From contig CM055899.1 of the NCBI GenBank assembly GCA_029582155.1, positions 81,127,556 to 81,191,555 of the forward strand: 64,000 nt of DNA, in the 5' to 3' direction. The DNA is from Panopea generosa (taxonomy: Eukaryota > Mollusca > Bivalvia > Adapedonta > Hiatellidae). The position numbers and the translations under genes were made by a program. The notes beneath the pieces are model-generated. The model saw only the letters and a list, made by a program, of their open reading frames with translations. It ran no database searches and had not been told where the DNA came from. Shown in pieces: positions 920 through 25,094 of the stretch (position 1 is its first letter; each line of letters begins with the position of its first letter).

Positions 920-1296
920 GAGCATATGGGTATGTTTCGAAAAATACCGTCACGTGCGAAGCAGGAAGGTACGTAAATCAACCCGATCCGGATAACTGCG
1001 CGTACTATTACACGTGTGACACAGTGCAGGCAAAACCAAAACACCAACAATGCAGTCCTGGAACAGTGTACGATCCCTTAATTTATAACTGTAATCATAT
1101 ACAAAGTACGCATTGCTTAAGTGGCCATAGCTGCCATGGTATCGAAGTTCCTAAACTCATCCCGTATCCAGGAAACTGCGCTAAATATATCCAGTGTGAC
1201 AGTTTCCGAGTACCTTCTGAGAAGGACTGCGCAGTGGGAACCTTCTTCAATTTCAAATGGCAAAGCTGTAATTCGACCGAATGCATGCAAAACTGA
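920..1296 (+). CDS. Terminal exon of a VWA/ChtBD2 secreted matrix protein paralogue (gene A, partial)
   Basis: This is the last exon of a gene whose upstream exons lie left of the window. It begins after a CAG acceptor (917-919) in phase 1, exactly like the terminal exon of the complete paralogue, and ends at TGA 1294-1296. It encodes two peritrophin-A type chitin-binding domains. The first has the spacing CX13CX5CX11CX12CX7C and contains PDPDNCAYYYTC. The second has CX14CX5CX10CX12CX4C and contains PYPGNCAKYIQC. This family binds chitin through a disulfide-knotted fold and is extracellular. Compared with the complete paralogue, the tail after the tenth cysteine is shorter and ends in a CMQN C-terminus. 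The first in-exon methionine would not be a real start, because the open frame continues upstream to the splice site. The frame is clean, so the gene may be active. The N-terminal VWA part is inferred from the paralogue, not seen. Confidence 0.85.
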
Positions 1297-1635
1297 AACA
1301 TTTTATCAAGTAATAGGTACATTATGTATATATTCTATCTTATTGCGCCTTTCCCTTTGCTAATAGAAAAGTCTTAAGCATGACATGATATTGCAAGCTA
1401 CACTTTGTACTGGAACCGTTTTGTGCTAACCGATTACATTTGTCAAATGAAAATGTAAATTCTCAAAAGTTCTGTATAGTAAATGAAATAAGCAATCGCT
1501 TTGTCATTGTAGTTTAGATTTTACATCCAGAAAATTTTATAAACTATGCATGTAGTTGAGCAAACCACCATCTTGTCAGAAATTATTCAAAGTAGTATTT
1601 TCCCATATTTATTCATTCAGACATGTTATACGTTA

Positions 1636-1641
1636 AATAAA
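1636..1641 (+). promoter_or_regulatory. Candidate poly(A) signal AATAAA of gene A
   Basis: An AATAAA lies 340 bases after the stop. The same hexamer is kept at the matching place behind the paralogue (25288-25293), which argues that it is used. No cleavage site can be proven from the sequence. Confidence 0.4.
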
Positions 1642-1721
1642 CGACGGAAGTAAATGGATCGAAAATCATTTCAAAAGACACCATATCAAGACGAAGATGC
1701 TAGATTTATGTGACAGTCATA

Positions 1722-1925
1722 CAGTAGAATCTCGATGGCTCGAACCCAACGGGAGTGGACAAAATAGTTCGAGTAAGGGGTTGTCAAGCCCTGTATCACT
1801 CAACATCATACCAAACATGAACATGCATATACATCGATATAGATAGTTCGGCAGATACCAGAGAAGGGGTTCGAGTTATATATGGTGTTCGAGTCATCAG
1901 TGTTGGAACCAACGAAGTTCTACTG
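1722..1925. mobile_element. pogo/Tigger-like MITE, 204 bp
   Basis: The inverted ends begin CAGTAGAA and end TTCTACTG, flanked by TA on both sides (1720-1721 and 1926-1927). The interior has repeated TTCGAGT / CTCGAAC words, as in elements with CAGTAGAACCTCGA-type ends. It has no coding capacity. Copy B has no such insert at the matching place near 25370, only about 10 unmatched bases. Confidence 0.75.
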
Positions 1926-2291
1926 TATGTCACAATGTATTTAATTTACTCTCGAAAATGTGTAATAAATAGCTATCACTGATATATCATACATTGTACT
2001 CGTATATACTTTTTCTTTGAAACTCCGAAAACACCATTTGTGAGATTGAACTTAATGAAACTTGAGAAAAAAAATCAAAACTTATTTTAATATGTCGTTG
2101 TGAAAAGCTTAAATAAGTAACTATACAGTTATTGATTTATTTATTTTGTTATGAATAACTCTGTGAATAAACGTGTTGTTTCAAGCTTATTAAGTATTGT
2201 GTTTCTTACGCATGTTATATGTATCAGCGTACTTGTTTACCAAGTTATATGACGTCATAATATGGTAACTATGCAAGCCGACGTAGGCGTT

Positions 2292-2378
2292 CTTTTATAG
2301 AGCCTACTTTTATAGAGCCTACTTTTATAGAGCTTACTTTTGTAGAGCCTACTTTTATAGAGCCTACTTTTATAGAGC
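2292..2378 (+). repeat. 15-bp tandem repeat, about 6 units
   Basis: The unit is CTTTTATAGAGCCTA, with one or two variant units. Copy B has only a single imperfect unit at the matching site near 26280, so the array grew in copy A after the duplication or shrank in copy B. Confidence 0.9.
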
Positions 2379-2379
2379 G

Positions 2380-3340
2380 GGCAGTTAGCACGATCTATTT
2401 GATTATGACCATGATAAAGATTGCGACTTAAAAAGTATATTTGTACTGGATTTACTGACTTTTTATGAAAACAGTTTGATTTTTAAATAGTGTCTATGAG
2501 TCCAGGCATTTGAACACAGAATCAAACAGAACATTTTTTATTTCGTTATATAGCACACTGTTCGACATAATCTGAAATAGGGCTTTATGACCCGTTCTCA
2601 AATATTTCAGAATAATATCAATACAAATGTATACTGAACGGAAATAATAACCCGCCACTTTTGTATTCGTATTGATTTAAAATAGCAGTGTTCAAGAAAA
2701 TTATCTTGATATTTTTGAGAAAATACATTTAATGTCAGGTATATGAAATGTTAGCTGGTGGGTTAGCTGCTCCGTACAGTATACATTTGATTTGATTTAC
2801 AATTAATTTTTATCGATGCTCATAGACTTATTTTTCAGTTTAAACGCTTCGTTTATATAAACAGACTGGTTTATTATAATTTGTTCGCAGTCAGTTTGTA
2901 ATATTTCGTATTTATATAAGAAATTAACATGTTTAATAGTTAATAATCATAGGCCAGAACGGCCTGAGGAAAAGCTCGTTTATTCAACGTTTTGCCAATC
3001 ATGTCGTCTTTCTTTAATTTTTTTGTCAGAATATGAAAAACAGATTTACCAATGAGCTCATGAAAACAGACCGAAAGACAGATAGAACAAAAAATTGTTA
3101 TAATAATTATAATAGCATGATTACCTATGGATAATTTATAGGTGATGTCATAATTGTATTTTTTTTATTGTTTGCCTTTGTTATATCATAAACCAACACA
3201 TTGATGACCCACCAAATGCATGATCATAGTTGCTTTGTTAGTTGCAACAGAAGCCTTCCATATGATGTAGTTACGACTATGAAATTATAATAAACACAAT
3301 ATTTGAAAGACAGATGAAATTTATTTTATAATAAACCAAA
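2380..3340. other. Gene-free AT-rich stretch
   Basis: There is no open frame with coding character. Parts are still alignable to copy B near 26300-26600. I see no promoter, RNA gene or repeat array. Confidence 0.5.
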
Positions 3341-3344
3341 CCAA

Positions 3345-3625
3345 GCCAGATAAGCTCAGTCGTTATCGCGTTTGACTGTCAATCCATTGGTCGTGGGTAC
3401 GCTTCCCCGTTTGGCAACTTTTCCGTGATGTTTTATATACGACATTGCGTCTCATTACCATTCGACTCTCACCGCTGATTTACGTCGGAAAGTTATCAGT
3501 TACTTGCGGAGATTGGGTGTGCTCAAGTACTGGTTCACCTTCCCAGATCCTAGGTTAGGTTAACTGATCGTCTGTTAGCCCTCGATGGTATAAAATGACG
3601 CAAAGATATTCAATCAATAATAAAC
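3345..3625 (+). mobile_element. tRNA-derived SINE (family 1)
   Basis: The tRNA-like head has an A box similar to AAGCTCAGTCGTTA and a decayed B box near 3396 (GTGGGTACGCTTCCC). It is followed by a body with AGTTATCAGTTACTTGCGGA and a tail with CCCTCGATGGTATAAAAT. The same body and tail recur at 17338-17570, and the CTTGCGGA core recurs at 53600. The head resembles a tRNA with anticodon GTC, but the degraded arms rule out a working tRNA. Confidence 0.75.
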
Positions 3626-3822
3626 TAAACAGCCTGCTATTGATGGATAGAAAGAAAGAACAACACACTATAACACGGGTTGCCTCACTTGTACTTTTGA
3701 GACGACCCCCATATACAAGCGGAAGAAAACCTACGCCAGGCGCAACGCTAAATACAATACCGGAACGTTGTTGCAAAAGCTGGTGAATATTCGTTTCGAT
3801 TTTTTGGTACATGTGCATATTG

Positions 3823-4038
3823 TATAGTTCCCACAGGCCATCTGGGTATAAGAGGAATCTATTCCACCAATTTATAGATTAGAACGATCTACACAATTGC
3901 AGATTACCTCAAAACAGTTGCGTTCATTCTAAATATAAACGTTACCGGACATGACACTTGACTTTTTAGGAGGTCGCACTGAATTGTTTATAAGTTAAAT
4001 AGATTTCTCTCATACCCGGACGGTCGGTAGGAACTATA
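3823..4038. mobile_element. MITE with about 40-bp imperfect inverted ends
   Basis: The left end (3823-3863, starting TATAGTTCC) and the reverse complement of the right end (3998-4038) match over about 40 bases, including GGGTAT and GAATCTATT-like words. The element is 216 bp with no coding capacity. The superfamily cannot be assigned from the ends. Confidence 0.65.
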
Positions 4039-4102
4039 AAATCTACCAATGTACCAAATTTGACACGAAAAATATCTATAAGTAGATTTTGAAACAACAT
4101 TC

Positions 4103-4178
4103 CAGTACCGTATTTAGCAGTGCGCGTGATGTAGGTTCCCCGGTACCGTATTTAGCGGCGCGCGTGACGTAGGTTTCC
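4103..4178 (+). repeat. 38-bp direct duplication
   Basis: Two adjacent copies share GTACCGTATTTAGC followed by GCGCGTGA and GTAGGTT. The unit is more GC-rich than its surroundings. Confidence 0.75.
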
Positions 4179-4179
4179 A

Positions 4180-5870
4180 TCCTTGATATAATGTATTTCT
4201 GATCAAATCGCGTGTACACCGCAAAGAACCGACAAGGGGTGTTAACAAATTTATGTTAAGAATGTTTTTATGTATTTTGACGTTCAACTTCTATATAATA
4301 CTTTAAATGTGACAGACATACTAGAAGTTCTGATTTTGAAGTATTCCAGCCGTTATGTTATTAATATAAATAAGTTTAGAATTGAACGTCAATCTGAAAT
4401 TATGGTATTGAGCCCACAGTTTCAATTTTTATCTGCATTTTAACAAAACAAGTGGTGTCCATATTAATCGTCGCTTGGGGTGCTGAAGTGGGCTATTTTT
4501 CTAATACGAAGTAGTCGTCTGCATTGTATGTGAATTTAATGGAAATTGTATTCCTTGAGTACCACATGTTTTGCTCTGTGTTTGCTAGAACAAAATTCGT
4601 AATAAAATTTGGATCTCGTCGTCCTTTGCTATGGAATTGCTTTTTGAAACTATTTTATCGGTCGGAGGAAATGCAGTTGCTGTCAACAGTATACCAAAGT
4701 TTATAGAACAAAATCATAAATGATCAATATGATGCCTTAAGAAGGCATCGCCTCCCCCCCCCCCCCCACCACCAAAACAAAAGGGGGTTTCAAATATAAA
4801 AAAATAAATATTTTCTGACATAAATCATTGAGGATAAAGTCTGTCATTTTCTATCTTGTTCACCATGTTGATTTCTTTGTATCAACAATTTCCTGCAGCC
4901 CAGTTTCTAGGATAAGTCTTCATCATGCTTCTGCGCAGTATTGTCATTGATGACTCACCATTTAATCTTCCTATTCCTATCTGTTTCAGGTAGTTGTCTG
5001 ATACCTGCTGTGTTGTCTAATGAAAATATGCGTCTTATATGATTTATGATAGTATACCCAATAAAACTTTACGATATCATCGTAACATTACTATAAGAAA
5101 CTGACAATCCAACATACCTAAATCTAATATATTTCGGGTTGATTGGAGTAAAAAATATTAAGCGATAAATGGTACACTTTTGAAAACCAGAAATATTGAA
5201 AAATGTTGAACACAATATAAAGTGTAAACACTTTTAGCAATTATTAGTTAAAAATAGATTGTTGGTCTCTACTTAAAATGATAAACTAGCACAAAACATC
5301 TTTTAAACTGGAACAAAAATGTTATTTTCTTAAATAGTTTTAAAATTTCTGACCTGAACACTTGTATTTACAAAAATAAAGGTATTCCGACTTTTGTTTG
5401 CATTCATTTTTACACCAGAGTAAAAGTTTGTATTTGAAACCGTTGCTTTGATACTTTCAGGCATTTCGTTTTGAAAAATGTCCTCAATTTTGATAATTCT
5501 TAGACATTTCAGCCTAAATGTTGCATGTTCGTTATTTCAAAGTTGCAGTTTCGCTATCTTAACATTTTGCAAATGTTAACATGGTCACAATAACCTGTTC
5601 GGATTGAATATCAGATTCGTTGTTTTGCACGTAAATGCAGTATAAAGAATTTAACATAAAATTAATGGAATCAAACGAGTTTAGGTAAAACACTCATGTT
5701 TATCCATATACATCTTTTTGCGTTTCATTTGCATTTTTATCATTTTCTGATATTAAATTTTCGTATTTTTGCATGTTTCCTCTCTTAGAAATACAGTTAT
5801 AAAGTTACATACTTTGCAAGTTTTGTAGTTAAACTGTCGTTAAAACAGTCCAAGTTACAATGCATACAGT
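4180..5870. other. Gene-free stretch with a poly-C tract
   Basis: A run of Cs near 4754-4768 is the only simple repeat. Positions 4980-5170 match copy B at 27810-27985. I see no open frame with recognisable family features. Confidence 0.5.
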
Positions 5871-5879
5871 TGGTACACA

Positions 5880-6000
5880 TAAAGTGTATTATTACAGGTG
5901 AAATTGATTGTGAAACAAGGTATTACAGCATAGACAAATCGCTTTCAAAGTCTTCCTGGTTAAGACATGTACTAATAATATGTGTACAAAATGTATTGCC
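5880..6000 (-). mobile_element. SINE fragment (family 2), minus strand
   Basis: This shares the block around TAGACAAATCGC and GTCTTCCTGG with copies at 16675-16840, 28490-28660 and 49057-49175. It is paired with the copy at 28490 in the duplicated segment, so it was inserted before the duplication. Confidence 0.55.
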
Positions 6001-6590
6001 AGACCATGCGAATATCATTAAATGCATCCTCTTTCCCCAAACATATGGACGATTTGTGTAAACACATACAGGTGTTTATATACCATAACCATTTGTATAA
6101 ACGTATTACGTTGTTCAAGAACGAATTTATTTTACATGTTTCAGTCTCAACACATGATCATTTCAACTTCATTGTGATGCTGTACTGTATTAGGACGTCA
6201 AACTAAACGTGTTCGGAGAGTACAGTAACATTGCTCTATTTCACCATTTAATCAACATAAGACACGAACTATATAGCTGTTGTTAGCGTCCTACCACTTT
6301 GTTTGAACAAGTGACATTGATTGCGACTGCCAAATATAAAACTTATATTTAATTTAATTATTTTATAATATTTTATTGCAAACTTTTACATCTTCAAAAC
6401 ATCAACTTTTAGCATCAATAACGAATAAAATACAAAAGGGTCGGGTTACAAGTTTTAACAACCTTAGTTACGGCCCTTCCTGATACGTCAAAATGCACAT
6501 ATAAAATAAAGTGACGATATTTTTGATATACAAACAAACACATATACTTTCGAACAAACATATCACTCCATTCTACACGCATACAGAGAG

Positions 6591-6591
<1 letters not shown>

Positions 6592-6632
<41 letters not shown>
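6592..6632. repeat. (CA)n microsatellite
   Basis: About 20 uninterrupted CA dinucleotides. This run creates an apparent minus-strand frame with a string of Cys-Val, which is not a gene. Confidence 0.95.
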
Positions 6633-6633
<1 letters not shown>

Positions 6634-6699
6634 GAAAAAGCAGTTAATAGTTTGCATGAATTTTAGTGAGTATAATAATGTTTTAAAGAAAAACAAAGT

Positions 6700-9600
6700 A
6701 TATAAACATATTAATAAACTATAGAGAAAAAGAAATGAAAAGAAAATTCAGTTTATATATAAAAAAACAAAAACCTATCATACCTATAGCGTTTATGTTG
6801 GTATGTGTCTGTTACTGTGGCTATGTCATTGCAATACTACGTATCAAGTTAAAAATACCATTTTCCATATTTTCCATTTTATTGGTGCAGATGACATTAA
6901 CAAAAAGGTTTATTATAGTCGCCAACATCATCGACATATGTCAATTTTAACACAACATCTTGGAATGATGCTACTAATGTTTTTATTGGAATGGGGTTTA
7001 GCGACATAGTCAACACATTAAAAGTGATAATGGCTTCCAGTTGTATTGGTGAAGGACCGAGTCGGGCTCACACCCAATATAGCGATGAGAGATAAGTGAT
7101 ATGTGTGCTTTGTTGGCGATATACGTATTGTCTTAATTCCGAGTCATTGCATTGGTCTATAGATCATGGAATACAATATTTGTTATATAAATTGTATATA
7201 AGCCATGTTATTAGAAAGCAATCGAACTATTTCATACAAAGCATGCGCTTCAGTACATAATAAACAGTTAGAAGGGGTTTATGTATTTGTTTATCGATAT
7301 TACTATGTTATTATTTAAGGATAACGGTAAGTTCTATGTTGAATATCAATACACGAATATGAAACAAGCTTCTGTTGGCCACATTAATAATGTTTACATT
7401 AAATATGTATATGTTGAAATTAATTCATAATATCATTGTTAAGATGCATCGCCGTATCATTGCTTTGATCAACAAAGTTGCAGTCATAACATTCGTCATA
7501 TGATTGATGACTTGACAGTTAATTTGCATATCAACAGACATATTAGGTTTTTATTAAATCCATTATTTAAAGGGACACATTGGACGTCTAAATTCATTTT
7601 TTGTTAACCCGTTTAAAACGGTCAATAGCGAAAACTGAAGATCTTAAATCTCGTCCGGTCATTCTCGCCCTTCCCTCTTCCTCTCATCAAAAACCACACA
7701 AGTGTTTATGATTAAAGTATATTTATTTGCAAATGTGGGATTTATATTCATGAATCAAACTGTGGCGTATACCTGTATGAAGAATATTGCCATAACAGTA
7801 ATGTCTGAAACTTCATTTTCAATGGTCTTCACGTTAATTGTTGAAATTTATTTTACTCATTTACTCATGTATACACATCCTCGAAACGTTTAACAATATG
7901 AATATATTAATCACTAGAGTTGCGAACCCAGCACTGTTAAATGGAAGAAAAAATAACCGTTTAATGTCTGGTTCCCTAAATTTGTTGCGTACTGTGTGCT
8001 TGTTTGAGGCTGAGCCATATCCAGGAAAAATATCAGTTAACGTTAGCATAAACATTTAACAGAACTTAAGCGCAGGTATAACTATCTGAAACAGGGAACC
8101 AGCATATCAGAAAGTAGTAAAATTTCTTACAAAAAAAGTCATTCCAGTGAAATGTGAAACCACGACTGTGATTTATGATTCATTTCCTACAATTACAAGA
8201 GTTGCACCCCTTTTCAAGATGGAAACACAATTAGGGATCTGCACACAAATTTGGGTAGTTTAATTTCATATTTACACCATGTACACAAATATTTTTTTAA
8301 AATGAAATAAAATGGAATGTGTCAAAATGATAAATAGTGGTGATGATTATATAAAACTATGATTTTTTTTAATATCGTTGGAATATAAATTGATATTTCC
8401 CTTCGATTGATTTCCTGCTGAACCGATTAAAATCTAAAGCAATTAAAATGTAACTTACCTGGGTGTTTCGATTATAAAAACAATTTACGAAAAAGAATCT
8501 GTTTTACTATTAGATTTAGGAATTTTGTGTTGAATTTGAAATAATATAATATGAATTGTATCAATGTTTTAAGACTGCAGTTAAAATGTATTTAACCTCA
8601 GAAGTAAGATGAGATGAGATGACAACATAGTTAACAGTAGGTGTTCCTGTCATATAGAAATGACGGGTTGTTTTGTGGGATCAGGTATGGGTGTGTTTAT
8701 GGCAAAACAATATGTAAGAAGTTGAACAATGAGACGATACGGCCCACAGTAGCAGTGAGGTTGACCAGGGAGTTGATCAATGAGACAATAGAGCTCGAAG
8801 AATGTTGTGCAATGTAGAGTACATTTCGGGAGTAATTTAGTCTTAGAAAATTTAGCGGGCAAGTTAACGTATGTTTGTGAATTATAACTAATGTAAAGAT
8901 AGAGACAATGGTTAAATTGAAAATGAAATATGGGAATTAAACATGAGTAAATAAAAATCACCCTATTTCTAGTTAAACTTTCCAAAACACAAATGGAATT
9001 AAATGTCTGTCTGCATGCAGGGGTATTTTAGTATTATATTTATGAAATGCAAGCTTTAAGAAATAGAATATTATAGATCAAGAATATTTATCAACTCTAT
9101 CTACTGTCCCTATAAATATCTAGCAATATCATGGCCGTCTAGTGATTGCATTTTCAACAGCATTTTAAAACATACCGGCGTGTTAGATAAAACGATTTAT
9201 TACTTGCAGTTATTTCGACATGCTTACGCCCAATAAAAACACTAGATTCATAATTATATTGTTTTATACTTTGATTGATCGCAGCAACTTTACTCTTTGT
9301 TTAATGTTAAACCAAACGTGACTACTATATTCATGAGTTATGTTTAGTTAGAGCTTGCGAAGTATAAAACTGATTCATTAATTCATTACTTCCATATTAC
9401 ATTTGCTAGCGTGCTTTAAAGAGACAAGCGACAATAACACAAAAATAATTTTATTTAACAATATTTGGAAAATAGTGTAGCTACATGATTAAAATGTCAA
9501 GTTGAAATGATACAGTAATGAATGTATACATTTAGTTAATATTTGGAAGGTAGGTGTGACTCTGTTAAACGGTTGAAAAACATCCTTTAATATAGCACAT

Positions 9601-9780
9601 TTGTTATCATCTAAGGCAAAATAGTAAAATATACTTAGAAAAAATAATCGGGAAATGTCCAATCGTATTTTATTTATTTTTAACTAATATTCTAAATATA
9701 AGCACGATACAACTCGTTTGATAACTTCTTCAATATGAAGTAATAGATAGTCACACTTCGATGTGGGTAAAATCTCTCAA
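6700..9780. other. Gene-free AT-rich stretch
   Basis: This holds only short chance frames. It is partly alignable to copy B (7140-7280 with 28660-28780, and 9280-9480 with 28850-29030). I see no RNA gene or array beyond short runs. Confidence 0.5.
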
Positions 9781-9798
9781 GTAGTTAACGTTCATAGG

Positions 9799-10240
9799 CA
9801 TAGTGCCACCATTGCAAAAAGGAAGTGCTTCCGTGGGGTAGTCGCATAATGGCGGTTGTAAATAATCCTCAATTCTTCTTCTTTAAAAATGCATTTTCCT
9901 ATTGTTAATGCTCATTTTTTTATTTGAATGGCATTATTGATGTATTTTGAACATTTTGATAGCATTGTCATGTTTGAATTGTGAATTTAGAAAAAAAAAA
10001 TGATGCTTGGAAATTGGGGTATGAATTCATGATTTCGGAAGTCTACTTTCACTTTGTCACCAGTGTACACACTGAGCAGAAAAAAAATCTCTTATATGAC
10101 ACATGACCCCTACTTTTTACTTGACAAACAGTAAAATGTAGGTTTCACTTCTTCCATTTGGGACCCTCTATGAATGACAACCTTCAAACTTTTATTATTT
10201 ACTATAGAATAAAGAACAAAAATCAATGGTGGGGTTACAC
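9799..10240. mobile_element. Non-autonomous hAT-like element, 442 bp
   Basis: It is flanked by 8-bp near-identical direct repeats, TTCATAGG (9791-9798) and CTCATAGG (10241-10248). Copy B has a single site there (GTCCATAGGGTTG at about 30187). The ends share CCACCATTG as an inverted repeat about seven bases in. There is no open frame. The 8-bp target duplication suggests hAT, while the terminal bases are too decayed to prove it. Confidence 0.7.
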
Positions 10241-10249
10241 CTCATAGGG

Positions 10250-11440
10250 GTTTATATTGGGGTACTGCGCAAAGAGAAATAAAACTTATTCCCACATTGT
10301 CGTGTGTTCCTTTAAACATTCTCTTGTATTACAAAAATATATAATGACGGTGACGGGTTTCTGTTGACGTTTTTATAACAAAAATGTTGATTGTTTAAGG
10401 TGATTACAATTTATCAATTTGATAACCAGTCGTGACAAACTTGGCGTTAAATGATAATAAATAAACGAAACTTATCGCCCTGAAGAACATCATAACAAAA
10501 CTTTATGTACGTAGATGTACTTTTGTTCATTGTAATGTGAAAGTTGTAAACATGTTCAAGGTTATTACATCGTATCCAATATACGGTAATATAATAAACA
10601 TTATATATAGCTAAGCATTTAATTCATTTTGGTGATTATTTTAATAATTACAAATAATATCCCATTAAAGGAAGCACAGAACGGGTAGAAGAAGAGATAC
10701 TATTGAAGAGATCTGTACATGGCTAATAGGTGTCTTACTTGCAGCTTAATCCATTTACATAATTATGCTGTATCTATATGTATGGCCATGTTAGTCCTGT
10801 ATCATAAGGTAATTAACAATTCATGACTTGTATAGACAAGATGATTAGAATGGATATTATTATACACAGCGTCTCAAGGACAGACGGCAGTCATCACCTG
10901 TGAAAGATAACAACTCATCTGCATGGATGGCACGTACATTTGTGGCATTTATCAGAAATGACAATGCTTCAATTTGTCACAACAATTTAATAGCATAGAC
11001 GACAATGACCGAACGACCATTTGTGTAGCATTTATACAAATTAATTAATTAATAAATAAATGAATGCTATTTTCTGATAGATGTTTTATTACATTTTCCC
11101 ACATAAACTGTGCACTATAATTTTTCACTATACACATTTTAAAATCAAATAAGCTGTATTGGAACTATGCAGAAGATCTAACTTAATAGACAAAAAACCA
11201 CGTGGTTACTCTTTCAAAATGCAGGGAAACAATTAAGGAAAGAAATTCAATACAATTCTTCAATAAGTTAACGCTGACTAAAAATACAACAAACAGCATA
11301 AACGTCGTTTTGGCTTCAACGAATAGTGTACATTTCTGTATTTTGACTAACGAGGGCGATTTTGTTTACTTTTAAATTCCTAATTAAATGATTATATGGC
11401 ATTTAAAACTGATATATTTATCATCCGTGTATTTATATTG
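10250..11440. other. Gene-free stretch matching copy B
   Basis: This is collinear with 30205-31650 apart from a copy-B insert. It contains no coding frame and no RNA gene that I recognise. Confidence 0.5.
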
Positions 11441-11448
11441 ATAAGACC

Positions 11449-11745
11449 GCGGCGTGGTCTAGTGGTAGAGAGTCCACCTCGCATGCATTCAGTACTCCGC
11501 CGGGTCATACCAAAGACTTTAAAAATGGTACTATAAGCTTCCTCGCTTGACGCTCAGCATTTAGAGGAGAGTTCTAGGTCTGGTCGGCCCGGTGTCAGTA
11601 TAATGTGACCTGGGTGGGGTATCATATCATGTGTCTGCGGCACGATACTCCAGTGTGACAGCGCTTAGAATACCGTCTCAAGTAGACACCGTCGCGATAT
11701 GACTGAAAAATTGTTGTAGGCGACTGCTAAACACCATACAACATT
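11449..11745 (+). mobile_element. tRNA-derived SINE (family 3), near full length
   Basis: The head GCGTGGTCTAGTGGTAGAG is a clear A box, and the B-box region near 11500 is decayed. The body contains the module GTATAATGTGACCTGGGTGG, GTGTCTGCGGCACGATACTC and GACTGAAAAATTGTTG, ending in CTAAACACCATACAACA. I recognise this module as a common bivalve SINE body. Copy B lacks it after the shared flank TGTATTTATATTGATA. Confidence 0.8.
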
Positions 11746-12870: not shown

Positions 12871-12888
12871 ATGCGGTATATACATATA

Positions 12889-13060: not shown

Positions 13061-15200
13061 ATAATGTATTACTATATTAATGTATTAACTAATATCCGTT
13101 TTGGGATGCGACAATGTGTTCGGTCAGTTTACAGAGTTTATATGTTAATATGATAGGACGGTAGCTTGTTGGATTGCTCAGATGTCCTTTCTTTTATAAA
13201 AGGGTAGGGGCTTCATTTCCTTTGGTCCAGGCCGAAGGTAAAGTACTTGAGTTAAGAGAAGTCATCTAAGGATAATTGGTTTGATGTGGATCAGGACCTA
13301 CAGCTTCTCATTTTTTAGAATTCACAATAGTTTGAGAATGCCTTTAAAGACCCAACCTGGGTATAAAAGGGAGGTAATGGCGGTGGGAGTGTTTCCCTTA
13401 TTTTTCAAAACACATTCAGATCTGGAAGAGTAATTTTCAAATATAAAATAAATTCGTGGATTGAAAAATTTAAAATTTGTCATGCAACATAGTCTTAATA
13501 TTACTCACAGTTCCTGAAAATTTCAGAATAAAATCTGCAATAATTTATTATTTATTGCCTTTAACAGACAATTAGTTACAGAGGAATTTGAATTTTGTGG
13601 GAGGAGCAAACTGGTCAATATTTGTCATGTGACCAATGTTTGTAAACAAACTGGCATGTTGTAGCTCACATGGCTGTATTTAAGATATAATAGTTAAATA
13701 CAAACTACACATCATGCAAGACTTACCAAACTTTCAAATGATTACTTCTTTCATCCTTTTTTTAATCACCAACAGTTGTATATCACCATATTTAATTGAA
13801 CTATACAATTGCTCCTCTTCTTTATTAAACAAAATTATGGTGCCACCTGAATGAATCATTTTACATGACAGAAATGATAGTTTTAGATTAAAACTAAAGA
13901 TAGTGTTTTCACCAGGAATATCATGCATATATATATATATAACGGCTTTTGTCAAATGAAAGCTTTTAAAAGCCGACTTAAAATTACCAAATCAAAAAAC
14001 AGAAATGTTTTTTTTTCTCTTAATTATCAATAAATTCTTAATAACAACTGATTTATTCATCATGATTTCTGCTTTAATGAAGTTGAAGTGTTTATACTCC
14101 CTCCGTGTATTATATTGTTATAACACGAACCCATTTTTAATATTTTTTTTCACTTTTTATTTTGTTTTTTATATGCGCGGCCTTGACATTGTTCATAATC
14201 ATCACAATTTATAATTTACAGTTAATACACATGCATGATAAAACACCAACATTAATTAAAGTTTATTATTATCACAGTTTCTATCACTCAACTTTGTATC
14301 CAAGGTATGATTTGAGGTATTGTGTTGAGAAAGACACCTTTTGCAATTTTAATATCATCAACATTAGTTCAAGTCTAATTCCTAATATATTCAACAAAGT
14401 GTTGATTATTACTTTTTTTATCAATAACATTCCAGTATTAATATAATATCCAAGTATGAATATAAAAGTGACAAAAATATCTGCACATAACATGTAACAT
14501 ATATATGTATTTTAATTTCCTTCCAAATCGTACCAAATGATTCATAATGGGCTATACCAACTTGAATATGGAGATTTTGGGCATATATGTTAGACTGATT
14601 ATAATGCTTGAATTGTGGTTTAAAATTAATAGGATACATATGTTCAACATATATGATATGATATCGATCGACAACATTATCACATGACTTAATAGTGTTG
14701 ATAAAACAGTAATTACCTGTAGTCCCTAATGCTAAAGTGGGATGTGGTATTGACCCCAGCGACAACTATTCAACATTGTTTTTACAAACATTTTACTGTC
14801 TGCTATTATTACTTTTCTATTGTTAGACCATATTATACATTCCCAGTTGATAAAACACGCCCTGTGGAGTAACTAATTTACATCCGATAGACTGATCGGA
14901 TGTTGGGTCTTAAAGATTTATGTAGATGTCGGGTATAGTTGAATATTTACTCTTTAACGGGAATGTCAGATCACATAGCATTGAGACATGACTGTCATTG
15001 TATAGGATTGTGACTACAGGCAAGTTTAAAGGTGTCAACATGTACGAATGTCACATATATATAATCGCCCATGAAGTCATGGAGAATCCGAATTTGAAAA
15101 GTTTAAATCATGCGAGGTCTGTGTATTTACATTGGTGCACGATCATCTGCTTCTGAATTTTAAGTATAATCATTCATTAACGTTGCAGAGAGAGGCCACG
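13061..15200. other. Gene-free AT-rich stretch
   Basis: There are many short chance frames and no domain. A small hairpin at 14880-14902 (ACATCCGA / TCGGATGT) is visible and may be accidental. Confidence 0.5.
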
Positions 15201-15201
15201 T

Positions 15202-15357
15202 CAGTGATATAATAGTAAATAACAGTTTGTGTTGCGATATCAGTGATATATTAGTAAATAGCAGTTTGTGTTGCGATATCAGTGATATATTAGTAAATAG
15301 CAGTTTGTGTTGCGATATCAGTGATATATTAGTAAATAGCAGTTTGTATCGCGACAT
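15202..15357 (+). repeat. 39-bp tandem repeat, 4 units
   Basis: Four units begin CAGTGATAT at 15202, 15241, 15280 and 15319. The inner units are identical and the edge units differ at a few bases. The period is a multiple of three, so a repetitive minus-strand frame arises. It has no start context or neighbours to support a gene. Confidence 0.95.
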
Positions 15358-15359
15358 CT

Positions 15360-16528
15360 ATAAGACAAAAGCTGATTAAAGTGAACAGTGTTAACACGAT
15401 TACATCTTAGAACATTATTAGACCGATATTGTTTCATGTTGAGTAAATCTTGTTGATTTGTATTATTGTATAATTGTATATTCATAATTGTATTTTGTGT
15501 TAAGATAAATTTTGTTTTGCTGACTAGTTATATTCTACCTTAGTGAGTTGTCGGCTCTTGGTCATTTTGCTACACATGCATGGCGTAATAATATAAAGTA
15601 TAGAACCATGACATTGTTGGTCCTGGTTCTGTATAATGTGATTTCGTGTGGAGTCACTATATCATGTGTCAGTAGTATATCCTTCTTGTCACTGAAAACT
15701 AAACTTCTGATTATACACAAAAGCGGAAGCCCAGCTGGATCAGTCTGTCATGCGTCTGATTGTCAATACGTCCGAATCCCTGTCGGTTAGGGACCTTTGT
15801 AATAATTTGTAATGTCCCCAATCACCCACATCTATATTATGTTGGGAAGTAGTCAGTGATTTGCAGGATAAGTCACTGACTTACTTCGCCATATACACAT
15901 TCAGAGATACTGTACTGGTGAATACTAATAGCGCTGATGAGATGAGTTGACTGAAATTAATATATTTATAAAAGGCTCAAAACCCCCATATTACTTACAA
16001 CATACGCGGAGTGTATTACATTAAACAACAGGACAGTACGTATGTGTGTGCGTATGTAAGTACGTGTGTAAGTGAGTGCAAAAGTACGTAAATGAGTTAT
16101 TTAGAAGCGTCGATTTTAATAATATTAAATCTCATAATATGTTAACATAACAACGTCTAGACAAGCCAGTTATCTCTATCAGTCTTAAAAAAATTCAATG
16201 ATGGAGGTTTGTGAACACCATAAATTATGACACCAAAACTTCATAAATAACTGAGTAAACTACCAATTAACTTCATTTAAAATACGTATATCGCCCCCTC
16301 ACGCCCGCTTTGAATTTTACCGCAATCAATTTTTTTATTAACCATATTATGCAAATTTTGGATATATCATCTTGTTTATATCGACACGCTGGGCATTATA
16401 TCATTTTGTTTTTAAAAGTTGAATGACGCGGTATGCATAATAAACGAAATATTTAAATCACCACCGTCACCATAGTATTGTCATTATACAACTAACAAGC
16501 AAGAAAGTGAGAGGTGGATACAATAATT
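15360..16528. promoter_or_regulatory. Upstream region of gene B, no clear core promoter
   Basis: This is the 1.1 kb upstream of the start codon of the complete VWA/ChtBD2 gene. No convincing TATA box or initiator can be assigned. A short GT/TA-rich run lies at 16037-16085. A possible decayed SINE module (TGTATAATGTGATTTC, CATGTGTC) lies near 15638-15680. Confidence 0.25.
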
Positions 16529-19500
16529 ATGAAACCGTTTTTGTGTATTTTGTTATTGGTCGGGTGTTTAACGGCGTATGTTAACGGTAAGTTCTTTTAT
16601 TTATTACAGGGTTAAGCCAAAATCTTTTCTTTTCGTTTAAATCTATTCATTTTACTTTGATTGTGACATTAGTTATAACAACTTAGACAAATCACGCTCG
16701 AAGTCTCCCTGGGTAGAACTAATACTTCACATACGCAGATAAAGTGTCTTGCTCAAGGACACTATGCGTAGATGTGGCAAGGGATCGAGGCCACGCCTCT
16801 CCGACCCTGGGTCCGGAGCTCTATTACAGAGAAATGTATCGTGATTGGTTGTAATAGCTTGTTTCACATTCGAGGTAAAATAAGAAAATATGTAAATAGC
16901 AATATATTCACTAATACTATGCCCGATTCTCTTCATGCAATAGCAAGTGCACACTAATCTTAAAGTATTGCCATCATAATAATTGTAACTTTTTAATATT
17001 TTTTTAAAGAAGAATATAACCTGTATCAGACATATCCATACACAGTTCGACGACAATCGGCTTTCTCATTGTCAGACCGCTAGCCCGACGTTAACGGTTA
17101 TGTAAACGCCCACATGTCCATAAATGATTGAAAATGTCATTTTAACTTAGTTTTAAATCTGCCAAATCAGCCTTAAAAGTTTAAGTGTGTACTACGAATG
17201 CTGACATTATTGATGGTTTATGTATTGCACTGTTTAGGATGTTATAATGCTGTGAGAATGATAACACCATTGACGTACTATGTACCTGCAATATGTCCGT
17301 AAATATTTTTAATGGCAATACTCAGCCTGTAGTACGTCGAAACTATCAACCTAGGGATCGTGAGTTAAAATCCCCGACCGATCTCTGTGATGGTTGATAT
17401 ACGACATTTTCATTCGTCTATTACCGCTGATTCAAGTGGGTAGGGAAGTTATCAGTTACTTGCGGAGACGGGTGTGCTCGAGTACTAGTTTACCTTCCAG
17501 GATCACATGAAAGATGGTATGTAAGCCCTCGATGGTATTAAAATATGATGCTAAATATTCGAATATTGCACATTCAGATGTTTGATACCAAGACGTCTCT
17601 GCCGGTTACATGTGTAATAGTATTAAGTAATGGTATTTCAATATATTTTAATAAGCATTATTTAGATAATCACGTAGTTAAATGACATGCATTTGAAACA
17701 ATCAATGATCATCACGTCGATTCCATTATACCCCATGTTCATTTTGTATTTTAAAAAGGAAATCATTGACTTAAACAATTACAATGTAAAATATACTATA
17801 AATTTAGATGAAACTTGTATGCATTTCACGTCATTTTAATATATTAAATCATAGTCCATTTAGCAATACTCACGCCCGAATATCCTGTCAGATTAGAATA
17901 TTAAATTGCATTATAAAAAACACGTAGTGTTTAAATTAATGTTGAATGGAAATATTCAGAAAGTAATTAAAAGCACAACTACAACCCGAAGTGACACAAT
18001 CAAAACGTGTTTCTTTGTACAACTGTCTTAACTTCAAAACAGTTTAAATGTTCCCTTACAGACTTGTCTTATGATCTCTGTACTGTACTGATTTTGCAAG
18101 TTGTTTACAAAATTTACCGAATTTATTTGCAATTATTTGACGGATGCATTATTTTAATGATTAACAAAACAACAAACCGTTCTGATATGCAAGTGTCATG
18201 ACTGATGATTAAATGTTTGTGGTAACCTATACGTGGGCGATTTATCATCGTCTATTTTGTAACTATATGCATCGTTCTACAACGATACGATACAAAACGT
18301 AAATTGATTTTGTAATATAAAATGTGAAGTTTGAAATTGCTTCAATATATTTTTTAATAACAGTGCGCCATATCAAGATCGTTTTTATGTCAATAGTTAT
18401 ATACATATAAATAAGTATCGTCATCAGTGGTATAGCTTCCTACAGGCCCTGTAGGCACATGCCTACACTTTTTTATGTCAATAGTTATATACATATAAAT
18501 AAGTATCGTCATCAGTGGTATAGCTTCCTACAGGCCCTGTAGGCTAGTTCGTTTTTATGTCAATAGTTATATACATATAAATAAGTATCGTCATCAGTGG
18601 TATAGCTTCCTACAGGCCCTGTAGGCACATGCCTACACTTTGTTATGTCGATAGTTATATACAGATAAATAAGTATCGTCATCAGTGGTATAGCTTCTAC
18701 AGGCCCTGCAGGCACGTGCCTACACTTTTTTCTGAGAAAAGTCAATCCCGAGTTTTAAGTTTCAACCTAGCGAAAAGAATGATTTTATAAATGTTATATA
18801 AATACACAGGTGTTCTATAATATATCTCGTATCAATTATAATATACGCTATACGCTTTTTGCAGATATAAAAATAGTGTTCAAACTTTCAACTATTCAGA
18901 AATATGAGAACTAAACCTTACAAGATGTAATGACATTTTAGTTTTTGTTGATTATTCTGATTTCAAATAGATTAGGACAATATGCATAAATATATTTGCC
19001 AATAACAAATATTTCATTTCTGTAAATAATTTCCTATATAACACATATGAACACCATCAATTTACTGGTGTATTTCCAAATCAATTAAAACAATACATTG
19101 AAGAAATTAGTATATATTAAATTTCAATACATACATCAACACTCTCTCGAAATATAACAGCTCACAATCGTTTTTAATAAGACTTATTCAATCAACTAAG
19201 CATACAAATGCAACATATATGAAAATACTTCAATATATACATAATCACTTTTTTGAAATATAATAGTTTCACATTCATTCGTAATACGACGAATTCAATC
19301 AACTGAAGCGAGGAACTAGAACAAATCGGGGATTTCCGTGAGTCATCATATGACGTAACGTCTCTTAATAACGTCATCTAAATATGATAAATCGACGTCA
19401 TTGATATTTTCAGGCACGTCATAAAGTACTTTGGCAACTTATGTACGAGAGCCGAGTTATACAGAAAACTTCGAGTAATGGATCGAACGTGGTATTACAT

Positions 19501-22500
19501 AAGGTTAATTAAAAATATGGAATGGGTTTATTACACTCCTGCATCGTAAAGTATGTGATGAACACATAAACTGAGCATACCAAGTGTATAGGGCTTCGAA
19601 AAACGAAATAGTTTAGCTGGTATAATAATATGTAAAACATTTTATTTTCATGAACACTATTATACATGTACTTAACATTAAAAGTGTTGGTCATTCTTGT
19701 GTATATTCTTATTGTTTATTTGTATGACGGTTCGGATGCATTTATGTACGTGAATTACTTTATTACTTACTTACTTACTTAATATATAGACGAAACAACA
19801 ACCTGATATTTACAAAAAAAGAAGAAAAAGTCCAAAGAATTGCTGCCAGTTGTGCTAGCAGACACTGGCGTAATCAAAGCCATGTTGGAAAAATGCTTGA
19901 AGAATGGTCAACCCTAGAACCTCGTAGGACCAAAGCTAGTCCCAGCCTCTTTTATAAAATACACTTAGGTCAGGTCTCCATAAACAAGTAAATGTATCTT
20001 TCCAAATATTTATGACAAGCACGGTCATCCAGTCAAGACCAATACAGCAGACCCAATGTAATCATGATGCCTTTCAATTCTTAATTTTCCGAGAACTATT
20101 TCTATTACTACTGTACGTTGTTGTGCTGAAACAAGTTTAACACAGTGAAAACAGTGTAACATCATCATTATCTAGATGCTTGCCTTAGGTTAAGAATTTA
20201 AATATTTTAATTTATACTTGGAAATGATAGTGGTGCAGTAGCTAGATTGTTTAAATGTAAAATAAACAATCGAACATTTTCTACAATATTCAAGAAGAAT
20301 TAAATTACGCTTTGTACATTATATACTAATCAATTAGTGCCAAATGTGTAACTGATATAAAAGCGTGTGGCATGATATTTTACTTGCATATACATAGATT
20401 TATGTTTAAATGAAATATATTTGTTATTTCAGGACAGTGCAGCGGAACACCAACAGATATTGTGGTAGCGGTTCCGGGATATTGGAAAATACCAAATGTT
20501 GAATTTGAAGCCTTTGAAGAAAACCTGATTAACCTCTTTGATCATTTTGATATTTCTCGTAATCAAATTAACATTGGTCTTATACTGTATGGAAATAAGC
20601 CGGTGAGAATTATCCATCCGCAGCCCTACAAAACCAGGAAACAGGTCAATACCAGGGTCACGTTAATGAGTCAGCGATATATGAATGCAAGAAAAATGAC
20701 TCGCCAAGACGTAGCTGGTGCCATTAAAGAAATGCGTGCAATGTTAAACTCACCCTTTCGACCGGGAGCAAGAAAGATTGGAGTTATATTTACATACGGA
20801 GCTGCCCCGAAATATGAAATGCAAAATATTATAGGTAATTTCTAATTTTCTTTTATTTTCGGCACTGTGATGAATGAATTGTAAAATTGTAATGATATCA
20901 ATAGTTGTCAAGATAGTCCAGTTGTTGTTCTTTTCAATGGAACATAGACACTACAAAGCTATGGTAGATTTACTTTGTTATTATTATATTAACTAACGAA
21001 AGTCTTTGTCATCTACCTATTTACCATAATCGTTATGTTTGTTTCCAACAACTAGAAACGAATTGATCAGGCTGCATTAATAGTGTGTGTGTTGCTGCGT
21101 TCGAAGGTTGTTGCGTTGGTGAATAATAATTATTTAAATGCGTTAGATGAAGATTCATCATCATAGGCTCAGATCCTGTTAACGTTTCCATATATCAGAA
21201 TATAATACTATTATAGACTGACAGCTGATAGATGTAAATAACTTGTTCGATATACTAACAGCAGTAAATTGTAATGCCGTGCATCCATTTTATTAATTAA
21301 TTTCATGACACGGTCAATTGTAACAAAAGTTATGGACACAGAGCATCTTACTATGCTCATAACTACAAAATTGCATAAACATGTAAAGGATGCAAGATCC
21401 TCAGCTCATTACCCCTCATCATCTTCAAGAAATGTGTCAAGGGTATCACTAGACGGCAGTAAGAATTTGTAACTGGTTCATAGTGATTCTTAGATCACAT
21501 ATCTCTCAATTGAGGTCCTGAGTTCGAGTGCCGCTTCACTGAAATTCTTTATGTAAGAAAGTGTCTGTTGCTTGCGTAAAGACGATGGATCTACTTAAAT
21601 CAATGTATAAGTATAAATATGAATTATTCTACCATCAATACAACTGGTGGATATATTGTCTTACCGTAAATATACGAAAAATATCGTTAGAATGTATTCA
21701 GTCATGTTATCTATTTGCTTAATAACTATACTGATTGTATATGGATCAGCAACACGTCGATGATGATAATTGCATAGTTAACTTTTATAAATAAAAATCA
21801 GCCTATGGAGTGACAATTGTATATTAAACGTTTATCAATCATTAAAATGCTATGAGGAATTCTGCATTTTAAAAGTTGATGAACAATAGATAAGGCGGTA
21901 AGGCGATATTTTTTATAAATGATAAACAACCGATGAGTTGATGATTGAACATGTTTAACAATCTATACAGCATTAACGACTTATAATGAACCAGTTTATG
22001 ATTGCATATAACGTGTTTATAAATATATATAAATTATTAACAACTTATAATGAACGATTTGAAGATTGCATAAAGTATGTTTATAAATCTACAAATTATT
22101 AACAAGTGATAATGAACCAGTTTAGGATTGAATATAACATATTTATAAATCTATAAATCCTTAACAACTTATGAGGCGAGTAGTATTAATAATAAACCTA
22201 ACAAAATGTATATGTTTGCAAGGACATTGCTCACATGGTCTATTCAAATGTAACTGTTTGTTGGTGGACGTTTTTGACTTAATTTTTAGCAGAATAAGAT
22301 AGCGTTTAAACTATACTTAAACTAAACGTATCATGTAGATATTATAAGGTCAGCGTATGAGGCTAGTTTCGAGTGTTTGCAATGATATATTACACGCGGG
22401 TGCTTTGGAGGCACAGAGCCCAATTCAGAAAAAGAAAAATCAGAGACCCAAGTTTGATTTAGTCTGTTCATAATTGTTAGGTTTAGAGTTGCACATGCAC

Positions 22501-25094
22501 GCCTTCTAGGACAGGTTAAAACAGTAGTATTTTGTTTTAATTTCATGGACTGAGCGCCGAATTCTAAAAGGAGGAATAGAAATAACAATATATTCTGTAC
22601 AGTCCGATATCATTGGCATATATCTGTCATTATTTGGCTAATAAATATAATCTGTCTGGTAAAATGACTAGTAATATTTTGGTTACATAAATATTCTGAT
22701 AAACAACAAAGTATTATCCGAGTAGCATATACTTAATACTGGTTCTAGCCAGGAATATACATACAATTGTCTATGTTGTAAGAAGTGTTTACCAATAAAT
22801 GTAAAATAAATAGGATTAAATTAATCAAACTTTGAATTCCATTGTAGATCAAGCAGCTAAAGCGAAGCAAGATGGAATTGTTCTGTATGCACTCAGTACT
22901 AATGGAACAGGTCAAGAGTTTCATCGCATAGGTTATGATTATTGCCGGCTATTCTCAATGGGCAACTTTTCACATAGTCTTCCATCCGCAACCTCGGATC
23001 TTGCGAAGGGAATTTGCTCTGGTAAGACATATTTGTATACTATTACATGAAAAAGGTGGTGATTCTTTTGTATGTATCACAGTTTCCTTTAATATATGTC
23101 ATACATCGGGTTAGATTTGCCTTAATTCATTTCTAAATAAAGAGGCGATCTTCACTTCAAACCTCCTCGAGGAGCTTTACAGGATGGCGGGAATGCCTCA
23201 GGGAATTCTTGAGGAGGACAAGCAGTCCGGCTGGAAGTCTTTTATAAGTCAACTTACACATGCCAACAATGTCACCATTCATGGTAGTACTGGCTATTCC
23301 CCTACTATTTAATGTTTGAACGACACCCTAAGTGAGCTGCGAATGCTCTCATTGGACTTTTGCACTGATGACATTTACTGCAAAGTACAAACACGAGTAT
23401 TTAAAAAACTGAAAGAAAGACTTTCAGTCGCATGCACAATGACTAGATACACCGCTTTACAAATAGCAAAACAGAATAAGAAGAAATATGATGTTTGGGC
23501 GAGAGCAGCAAACTTCAAATCTTTATTAATATGGTCACCCACCGCTTCCCCTAGACATATCGGCGACATTAATACCCCAAATAAAGTTCATATATCCCTA
23601 GAAAAGTAATGGTATCCTTTACAGTTTTGGTGGTCCGGACATATTGGGTAGGTTTCTCAAACAATTTAACCAAATGTGTCAATTGAGAAAAAACATGGCA
23701 TGGTTTACATACGTTACAGAAGATCCAATGTTTTCAACATTATATATTATTTCCAGTATTTACAGATAGCAAAGTATAATGATCAAAATATAAAGGATGA
23801 GAACGAAAGAATACAAATATAATAAGGTTATTCTCCGAAGAAGCATAATATGAACAATGTAACGTGACGGTACATATAGATATACGATTTATTGTAAATG
23901 AACAAACAAACAAATATGTATATGAAAGAAAGGAACATTAAATCAAATTAAGATAATGAGAATCGTGTACTATCGATGAAATTGATATTTAACTATTTGA
24001 CTTTTTAAAGAGAGAATCTAAAGAATGAAGATTAGAGATTTCTGGCGAGGGGATCGGTAATAGACTGGGTCCATGGTGTATATGCATACCTGCTTAAGCT
24101 GTATGTGATTTTTTTAGAAAATATTACTTATATTACGATCAAGGGTCGTAGCAAATTTGTATTTGATACTATCTTATATTGATTCTTTTTTGTATGTTTT
24201 TTTTTTTCAGAAATAGATACTTCTGTTCAAGTGGTATCAGGAAATTGTTTCCCACGTGAGTACTCTTAAAAAAATTATTGACATTGTTTTTTAAACGGAA
24301 ATCATTGAAGTATTATTTTGAATCTTGATAGATGAACGTGATTCTTTATTTGATTAAATAATTTGTCTGGTGTTTTATAGTCGTAAACCATTAAGTTTAT
24401 GCTAATTTTAGCTCGATTGCTTGATTGCATCCTACTCAACTCAAAATTCATGCTCAAACACAATTTGAAGCGCATTATGTGGATTCAACTTCGAAATTGA
24501 AAGTATTAACCACACGGTATTGTTTTGAGTAACTCTTATGTACTGGTACTTTACCCATACTTTCGGTGAATATATATGGAATAATTGGACCATTATTGTT
24601 TAGTTTTATCGGTAAAATAAAAATATGTCAACGTTATTTGCTTAATAAGCGTTTTAAATTATAATTATGCAGCTGTTATAAGTGCATGATTACCATTTAT
24701 ATTAACAGGAGCGTATGGATATGTTTTGAAAACAACAGTCACGTGCAATACAAAACAATTCGTGAGTGTACCCGATCCGGATAACTGCGCTTACTATTAC
24801 ACGTGTGAGACAAAGCGGGCGAAACCAAGCCACTTAAGATGCAGTGCTGGAACAGTGTACGATCCAAAAGTTAATGGCTGCAACCACCTGGAAAACACAC
24901 AATGCTTTTATGACTTTCCCTGCCCACCTGAAGTTTCTCAACTCTTACCGTATCCTGGGGATTGCACTAAATATATCCAATGTGATTCTTCCGGACTACA
25001 TTTCCTCAAGGACTGCGCATTGGGAACCGTCTTCGATTTTGAATGGCAAAGCTGTAATTCGACCACAAAAACCACGAACTGCTATAGATACTAA
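16529..25094 (+). CDS. Secreted VWA + two chitin-binding domain protein (Pif/BMSP-like shell matrix type), gene B, five exons
   Basis: Exons are 16529-16586, 20433-20834, 22848-23021, 24211-24255 and 24709-25094. All introns are GT-AG and phase 1. The product is 354 aa. Exon 1 encodes a signal peptide (residues 1-20, core LCILLLVGCLTAYV). Residues about 26-210 form a VWA domain starting TDIVVAV, with a GLILYG strand and a GVIFTYG strand. Residues 239-292 and 298-351 are two peritrophin-A domains with cysteines at 239, 253, 259, 271, 284, 292 and 298, 312, 318, 329, 342, 351. Secreted VWA plus chitin-binding proteins such as Pif and BMSP sit in the organic shell matrix and bind chitin, and that role is inferred here by architecture. 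The metal site (DxSxS) reads PGYWK at residues 34-38, and the later Asp is Tyr141, so metal-dependent ligand binding is unlikely. The start codon is the only one giving a signal peptide in phase with exon 2. Another secreted cuticle or mucus role is possible. Confidence 0.88.
16675..16840 (-). mobile_element. SINE (family 2), minus strand, in intron 1 of gene B
   Basis: Read on the minus strand, a B-box-like GTGGCCTCGATCCC lies near 16790, followed by GTGTCCTTGAGCAAGACAC and the block ending TTGTTATAAC. The same body recurs at 5880, 28490 and 49057. Confidence 0.65.
17338..17570 (+). mobile_element. SINE (family 1) in intron 1 of gene B
   Basis: The B-box-like GATCGTGAGTTAAAATCCCC is followed by the family body (AGTTATCAGTTACTTGCGGA, GGTGTGCTCGAGTACT) and tail (CCCTCGATGGTATTAAAAT). 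The A-box part is eroded. Confidence 0.7.
18381..18732 (+). repeat. 88-bp tandem repeat, 4 units, with internal palindromes
   Basis: Units start near 18381, 18469, 18551 and 18639 and share TATGTCAATAGTTATATAC and ATCGTCATCAGTGG. Each ends in CTACAGGCCCTGTAGG. Three of the four also carry the following palindrome GTAGGCACATGCCTAC. The second unit lacks it and is 6 bp shorter in spacing. The array lies in intron 1 of gene B. Confidence 0.9.
19120..19310 (+). repeat. Old approximately 108-bp direct duplication in intron 1 of gene B
   Basis: Two diverged halves share TTCAATA-ATACAT, GAAATATAA, AATACGAC/AATAAGAC and TTCAATCAACT at a spacing of about 108 bases. Confidence 0.45.
19756..19782. repeat. 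(TTAC)n microsatellite
   Basis: A short run of TTAC tetranucleotides in intron 1 of gene B. Confidence 0.85.
19806..19991 (+). mobile_element. 3' end fragment of a non-LTR retrotransposon (LINE) reverse transcriptase
   Basis: The 55 codons from 19827 to the stop at 19989-19991 encode the typical C-terminal tail of jockey/CR1-type reverse transcriptases: VQRIAASCA, then a VGKMLEEW-LEPRR stretch, then SLFYKIHLGQV. Only this tail is present, as expected for a 5'-truncated insertion. It lies in intron 1 of gene B, same strand, and is dead. Confidence 0.75.
21470..21610 (+). mobile_element. Decayed tRNA-derived SINE fragment in intron 2 of gene B
   Basis: The B-box-like GAGTTCGAGTGCC is followed by TTTATGTAAGAAAGTG and TTGCTTGCGTAAAGACG. 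This parallels the TTTATGTGAAAATG and CTACTTGCGGAAGGACG body at 53590-53630. Confidence 0.55.
21970..22170 (+). repeat. 63-bp imperfect tandem repeat, about 3 units
   Basis: TTAAC anchors fall at 21973, 22037, 22099 and 22161, each followed by ACTTATAATGAAC-like and GTTTATAAAT words. The array lies in intron 2 of gene B. Confidence 0.75.
23140..23608 (+). mobile_element. Fossil fragment of a Ty3/Gypsy-type LTR retrotransposon (integrase region)
   Basis: Short stretches resemble the integrase core and its C-terminal side in Ty3/Gypsy pol, including the characteristic STGYSP-like word near 23285 and a downstream lysine-rich segment. No LTRs, gag, protease or reverse transcriptase are seen nearby. 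It is a broken, internally shortened remnant in intron 3 of gene B, on the same strand. Age cannot be set without LTRs, but the decay suggests it is old. Confidence 0.6.
23610..24210. other. Rest of intron 3 of gene B
   Basis: AT-rich sequence ending in a long polypyrimidine tract (24183-24208) and a CAG acceptor for the 45-base exon 4. No other structure is seen. Confidence 0.6.

Follow-up and report, generated by a model that had tools for sequence, protein, structure and literature searches.

What was duplicated at a locus of the burrowing clam Panopea generosa where two similar chitin-binding exons follow one another on the same strand, and what kind of protein do the copies encode? The locus lies on scaffold C6, in a stretch of 64,000 nucleotides analysed here (the window; assembly GCA_029582155.1, contig CM055899.1, positions 81,127,556 to 81,191,555 of the forward strand). 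An earlier, sequence-only reading of the window had proposed a tandem duplication of a matrix gene with VWA and chitin-binding domains, together with about 11 kb of its 3′ flank, in a growing locus of Pif/BMSP-like secreted proteins. We regard as reasonably probable an account in which a whole five-exon gene was duplicated in tandem long ago, giving genes A and B, a further copy was later placed on scaffold C1, and the products are chitin-tethered docking proteins whose VWA domain acts independently of metal.

Tandem duplication of a whole gene

Both genes were modelled on the forward strand, with negative coordinates denoting bases left of window position 1.

-9149 to -9092, -3502 to -3059, -1448 to -1272 and -435 to -391, + strand: other exons of gene A (splice sites and frame)
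920 to 1296, + strand: terminal exon of gene A (two CBM_14 by Pfam, stop at 1294-1296, splice sites and frame)
16529 to 16586, + strand: gene B exon 1, coding for the signal peptide (selected on hydrophobic core and donor score; A and the C1 gene have matching candidates)
20433 to 20834, + strand: gene B exon 2, coding for the start of the VWA (Pfam VWA, phase-1 splice sites)
22848 to 23021, + strand: gene B exon 3, rest of VWA (Pfam, splice sites)
24211 to 24255, + strand: gene B exon 4, linker (splice sites)
24709 to 25094, + strand: terminal exon of gene B (two CBM_14 by Pfam, stop, splice sites and frame)

Sensitive self-BLAST of window positions 1-14000 against 14001-33000 gave 19 matching rows, 10 of them on the best chain: block 780-1407 pairs with 24540-25197 and nine more follow in order, the last pairing 12436-12889 with 31688-32170. 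At least three of the 19 rows (3422, 5904 and 12111) were out of order and resemble dispersed repeats, and a control with copy B reversed, run on the window part and not on the left flank, returned 0 rows. With the left flank included, the best chain matched -10467 to 12889 (A) with 15577 to 32170 (B) in 18 blocks of the same order, spanning coding, intronic and flanking DNA. The homology is thus collinear and on one strand of one chromosome, scaffold C6, the arrangement of a tandem segmental duplication, and since the duplicated unit reaches left to -10467 in A and 15577 in B it includes the entire gene, most of gene A lying left of the window. The duplication proposed by the sequence-only reading, with preceding introns and 3′ flank, is therefore borne out by ordered blocks, and its terminal exons, with a common phase-1 splice, were exactly placed. 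The self-comparison with left flank that it had set as a check gave matches beyond the exon, in introns and flanks, and a homology restricted to the exon is rejected.

The flanks are less complete than had been thought. Collinearity does run to the proposed end points of about 12880 and 32170, correct within 10 bases (12889 and 32170), but it is patchy, and the unit extends leftward as well. Aligned columns total 2.9 kb between 3′ flanks of 11.6 kb (A) and 7.1 kb (B), from which we infer that large parts were replaced or lost. On the right, the A/B homology ends at the edge of a dispersed repeat which adjoins copy A (approximately 12884-13089).

1297 to 12889, + strand: 3′ flank of copy A (patchy collinearity with 25095-32170, closer with the C1 copy)
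12884 to 13089, no strand: dispersed repeat at the right edge of copy A (further occurrences at 51647-51835 and near -70308)
12890 to 15576, no strand: stretch between copies A and B, not common to both
25095 to 32170, + strand: 3′ flank of copy B (patchy collinearity with 1297-12889; 29045-29863 is a dispersed repeat)

A mobile element as sole cause of the flank similarity was considered and rejected for the one piece searched: a 570-base flank piece occurred at no fewer than four genome places (A, B, C1 and a relic at C6:59.42 Mb), a lower bound as very common words are passed over in the search. Dispersed repeats do occupy other parts of the flanks, for example 3422-3612 and 29045-29863, but the ordered chain is independent of them. 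The relic (C6:59422984-59423585) is rearranged and far from the cluster, its two longer pieces being 74-80% identical to A flank 10283-10852.

Five paralogues and a copy on scaffold C1

Genome searches recovered five intact paralogues, four on C6 (g1, g2, A and B) and one on C1.

C6 -73938 to -90838, - strand: g1, 74-91 kb left of the window
C6 -41036 to -33330, + strand: g2, 33-41 kb left of the window
C1:18894764-18887787, - strand: C1 gene, inside an interchromosomal duplication of A

The searches returned six matches for the B terminal exon, five for the B VWA exon, seven for the g1 VWA exon and six for the g2 terminal exon; all four found the same five genes, and the extras were only weak CBM_14 matches at C12:25443845 and C14:6545791. 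Further copies to the left had thus been correctly anticipated, whereas the fifth copy, on another chromosome, was unforeseen. Protein identity is 87.7% for A/C1, 62.3% for A/B, 65.3% for B/C1, falling to 37-45% wherever g1 or g2 is one of the pair; by this measure g1 and g2 are more distant relatives in the same C6 cluster, probably from older duplications.

All introns are GT-AG and phase 1 in the five gene models, and exons 2 and 3 differ in length between A and B by multiples of three. The predicted proteins have 354 (B) and 366 (A) residues, with a range of 354-370 over the five, and each model has a signal peptide, a VWA and two CBM_14. Pfam scans of three of the five full proteins (B, A and g1) gave VWA and two CBM_14 above cut-offs, with VWA (PF00092) scoring 52-57 bits against a curated cut-off of 23.8. 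Signal peptides were predicted by hydrophobicity score and first exons picked by signal-peptide and donor score; A and C1 each offered a single candidate, g2 two, g1 four and B five. The sequence-only reading had stated that both terminal exons keep open frames and nearly all cysteine spacing. This holds: none of the five models has stops or frameshifts, every terminal exon has 12 cysteines, A and B agree in the length of nine of the 11 gaps between cysteines, and 15 cysteine columns are common to all five proteins. In g1, VWA and linker occupy a single exon (-77322 to -77963), whereas two introns split this region in A, B, C1 and g2, either by intron loss in g1 or by gain in the others.

The C1 gene lies in a 45 kb segment (C1:18874934-18919771) collinear, in reverse orientation, with C6 -31362 to 13350 (27 blocks, 28,191 columns, 8.2% mismatches). 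Both ends are sharp, and no target-site duplication was seen there by eye. Shared site patterns (A+C1, 879 sites; A+B, 220; C1+B, 172) favour grouping A with C1, and then B (support 100/99). The simplest order is therefore a tandem duplication on C6 first, after which copy A, with approximately 20 kb of upstream DNA, would have been copied to C1. A, B and C1 would then record two datable duplications of one matrix-type gene, with g1 and g2 older. A ‘growing locus’ fits this history loosely: copies did accumulate, but A/B dS is already 0.42, g1/g2 pairs are saturated, and the only fairly recent event put a copy elsewhere. A stretch of about 5.3 kb (C6 -16037 to -10779) has no counterpart in the C1 copy; its open frames resemble what we take, by motif, to be pieces of a non-long terminal repeat reverse transcriptase.

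Loss of the VWA metal site

The metal-ion-dependent adhesion site (MIDAS) of VWA domains binds a metal ion. Aligned with the VWA of a locus on C12, all five paralogues have proline in place of the MIDAS aspartate and have lost the second serine, the threonine and the last aspartate, the first serine being kept only in g1 and g2. Among the matches listed, at least three other loci, picked out by eye on C12, C9 and C18, have VWA and CBM_14 within about 21 kb on one strand, and D-x-S-x-S is kept in all three of these loci, which are known from neighbouring domain matches. Most simply, the loss would mark the five-gene family and predate its duplications. Published sources, cited here and below from the parts available, say that VWA domains of shell proteins, including Pif177, act via the metal-ion site (PMC4660305), and a figure legend marks D-x-S-x-S for Pif and its homologues (PMC6907788). 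It is a mild surprise that all five genes have lost a site kept by related shell proteins. A literature search did not find MIDAS-less VWA-CBM_14 proteins or this geoduck cluster described, which does not show their absence from print; the family looks like a variant that is seemingly undescribed. A MIDAS-less family in a genome with other VWA/CBM_14 loci that keep the site makes the metal-ion-site idea testable. At C12:25443001-25452500, three CBM_14 stretches in one frame, together with a VWA whose MIDAS is intact, form a candidate Pif/BMSP-type geoduck gene.

Comparison with shell matrix families

In layout the geoduck genes resemble Pif97 and Pif97-like proteins of Pinctada: PfmPif97-like also has a signal peptide, one VWA and two chitin-binding type-2 domains, but it has 606 residues and the MIDAS D-x-S-x-S (PMC6907788, in part), compared with 354-370 residues and no MIDAS here. 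No Pif80-like part was seen in the geoduck genes. BMSP of Mytilus and other bivalves shares the order of VWA then CBM_14, with four tandem VWA and an LG sequence in the bivalve proteins (PMC11291548, in part), whereas each geoduck model has one VWA and no Laminin_G_3 match; 0 of 13 genome matches to that profile fell in the cluster, although a partial LG can escape it. CBM_14 lies downstream of VWA in 38 of the 50 published Pif/BMSP members (PMC11291548, in part). The signal peptide and VWA near the N-terminus, by hydrophobicity score for the former, and the downstream CBM_14 (two in each of the three full proteins scanned) are Pif/BMSP features that are present, while MIDAS D-x-S-x-S and the four tandem VWA of bivalve BMSP are absent. 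All five models stop soon after the second CBM_14, and no acidic tail was found (D+E 29-39 vs K+R 31-36). We accordingly call the five genes, from their predicted proteins, Pif97-like in layout, and not Pif or BMSP. Of the earlier description ‘Pif/BMSP-like’, the domain order stands; the lost MIDAS, the single VWA and the lack of a Laminin_G_3 match go against it.

In the bivalve Pif_LamG3 cluster, VWA/CBM genes are likewise grouped on a single chromosome, a pattern ascribed to tandem and mostly reverse duplications, but these genes derive from an LG-domain ancestor (PMC10543319, in part). As Pif-type tandem duplication in bivalves is already published there, the duplication is an event of a known kind.

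Divergence and selection

Between copies A and B the distance is 0.222 within exons (1050 sites) and 0.179 outside them (5455 sites); the second figure is biased downwards, as non-exonic DNA can be aligned only where it is conserved. Ratios of replacing to silent divergence (dN/dS) come from our own NG86 counts with 1000 codon bootstraps, and are exploratory. Over the whole coding sequence, A/B gave dN 0.260, dS 0.423 and dN/dS 0.61 (0.45-0.84), with a ratio below 1 in 999 of 1000 bootstraps; A/C1 gave dN 0.059, dS 0.135 and dN/dS 0.44 (0.27-0.75), and C1/B a dN/dS of 0.64 (0.47-0.89). Silent sites are saturated in the pairs that include g1 or g2, hence no ratio is given for these. With B as outgroup, private residue changes number 18 in A and six in C1 (binomial p 0.023), and private non-exonic changes 137 in A and 196 in C1. 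The private codon changes in A comprise 12 silent and 13 replacing, with no excess of the latter, hence adaptive change is not claimed. Positive selection on the terminal exon was also rejected, on an NG86 ratio of 0.63 for A/B. On these estimates the A/B pair is old, intact and, as it appears, weakly constrained.

Proposed role and alternative explanations

The products would most likely be chitin-tethered adaptors of an extracellular matrix. Each gene is predicted to yield a secreted protein of 354-370 residues, which two CBM_14 domains would hold on chitin while the VWA surface docks other matrix proteins. With the MIDAS residues lost from all five, such docking is expected to occur without a bound metal ion. 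The location, a guess from relatives, may be a chitin-bearing extracellular layer, e.g. the shell matrix or periostracum. A pull-down with the PfuPif97 VWA recovered other shell proteins (PMC11291548, in part), and RNA interference of six VWA genes in pearl oyster led to disordered nacre (PMC5597905, in part).

Several points weigh against this account. First exons were chosen by score, without cDNA, that of g1 from four candidates, and the MIDAS columns come from a MAFFT alignment of few sequences. A structure model of the g1 VWA exon was poor (mean pLDDT, a per-residue confidence, of 43.8), hence the VWA fold rests on Pfam. For the terminal exon by itself, the comparison advised by the sequence-only reading, the A/B ratio of 0.63 has an interval (0.36-1.12) compatible with neutrality, and YN00 (Biopython) gave 1.28 for A/B and 0.99 for C1/B; NG86 was preferred because YN00 was unstable over domains.

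More tentatively, and with somewhat less than even confidence, the five genes may form a distinct subfamily of secreted VWA-CBM_14 proteins, descended from a common ancestor in which the metal-dependent adhesion site had gone and the VWA had become a metal-independent dock on chitin; it would then have spread by tandem duplication and one 45-kb copy to another chromosome.

A serious rival, although we think it unlikely, is that the proteins act away from the shell, for example in gut lining, mucus or defence, where they would bind chitin from food or microbes. The general nature of CBM_14 as a chitin-binding domain counts in its favour, and the fast protein change (dN/dS near 0.6) would suit a variable surface role. 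Moreover, mantle expression is not high for many of the Pif and LamG3 genes (PMC10543319, in part). If these are not shell genes, their multiplication is ordinary gene-family turnover.

It is distinctly improbable that the genes are true shell-specific Pif/BMSP members which help to nucleate or place calcium carbonate. The same order of signal peptide, VWA and CBM_14 would suit such membership, as would the chromosomal Pif/LamG3 cluster known in bivalves (PMC10543319, in part), but MIDAS is lost in all five genes, none of the Laminin_G_3 matches lies in the cluster, there is a single VWA in place of four, and the proteins stop soon after the second CBM_14 with no acidic tail.

Still more doubtful is the idea that A and B are relics under relaxed selection, heading for loss. 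The high dN/dS, the excess of exonic over alignable non-exonic A/B distance (0.222 vs 0.179, the latter from conserved DNA only) and the surplus of private residue changes in A over C1 all lean that way. They are opposed by five models free of stops and frameshifts, by 15 cysteine columns kept throughout, by a whole-coding A/B ratio below 1 in nearly every bootstrap, and by the even balance of silent and replacing changes private to A.

A contig N50 of 1.6 Mb leaves slight room for the second copy or the C1 copy to be an assembly artefact such as an unmerged haplotype, but this is extremely unlikely, since A and B differ at 18-22% and A and C1 at 8.2% of aligned sites, far above the geoduck heterozygosity of 1.37% (N50 and heterozygosity from PMC10729735, in part), the sequence read (194 kb of C6, 70 kb of C1) is free of N, and A and B share a scaffold.

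Other features of the region

A satellite array with a 61-base unit in about 107 copies (33170-39638) begins 1 kb beyond the right-hand limit of copy B. Further self-matching arrays, among the matches listed, lie right of the window at approximately 65-70 kb and 73.8-83.7 kb, and left of it from -106.5 to -95 kb. Between 41839 and 48917 we found a flavin monooxygenase (FMO)-like gene in pieces, the first exon of which scores 21.0 bits with the Pfam FMO-like profile (cut-off 22), and the remaining exons of which are presumed. Near 45.8 kb a frame change and a stop seem to interrupt its reading frame, for which a pseudogene, an intron and an assembly error are candidates. An imperfect 42-base repeat array (47229-48146) lies inside this gene region.

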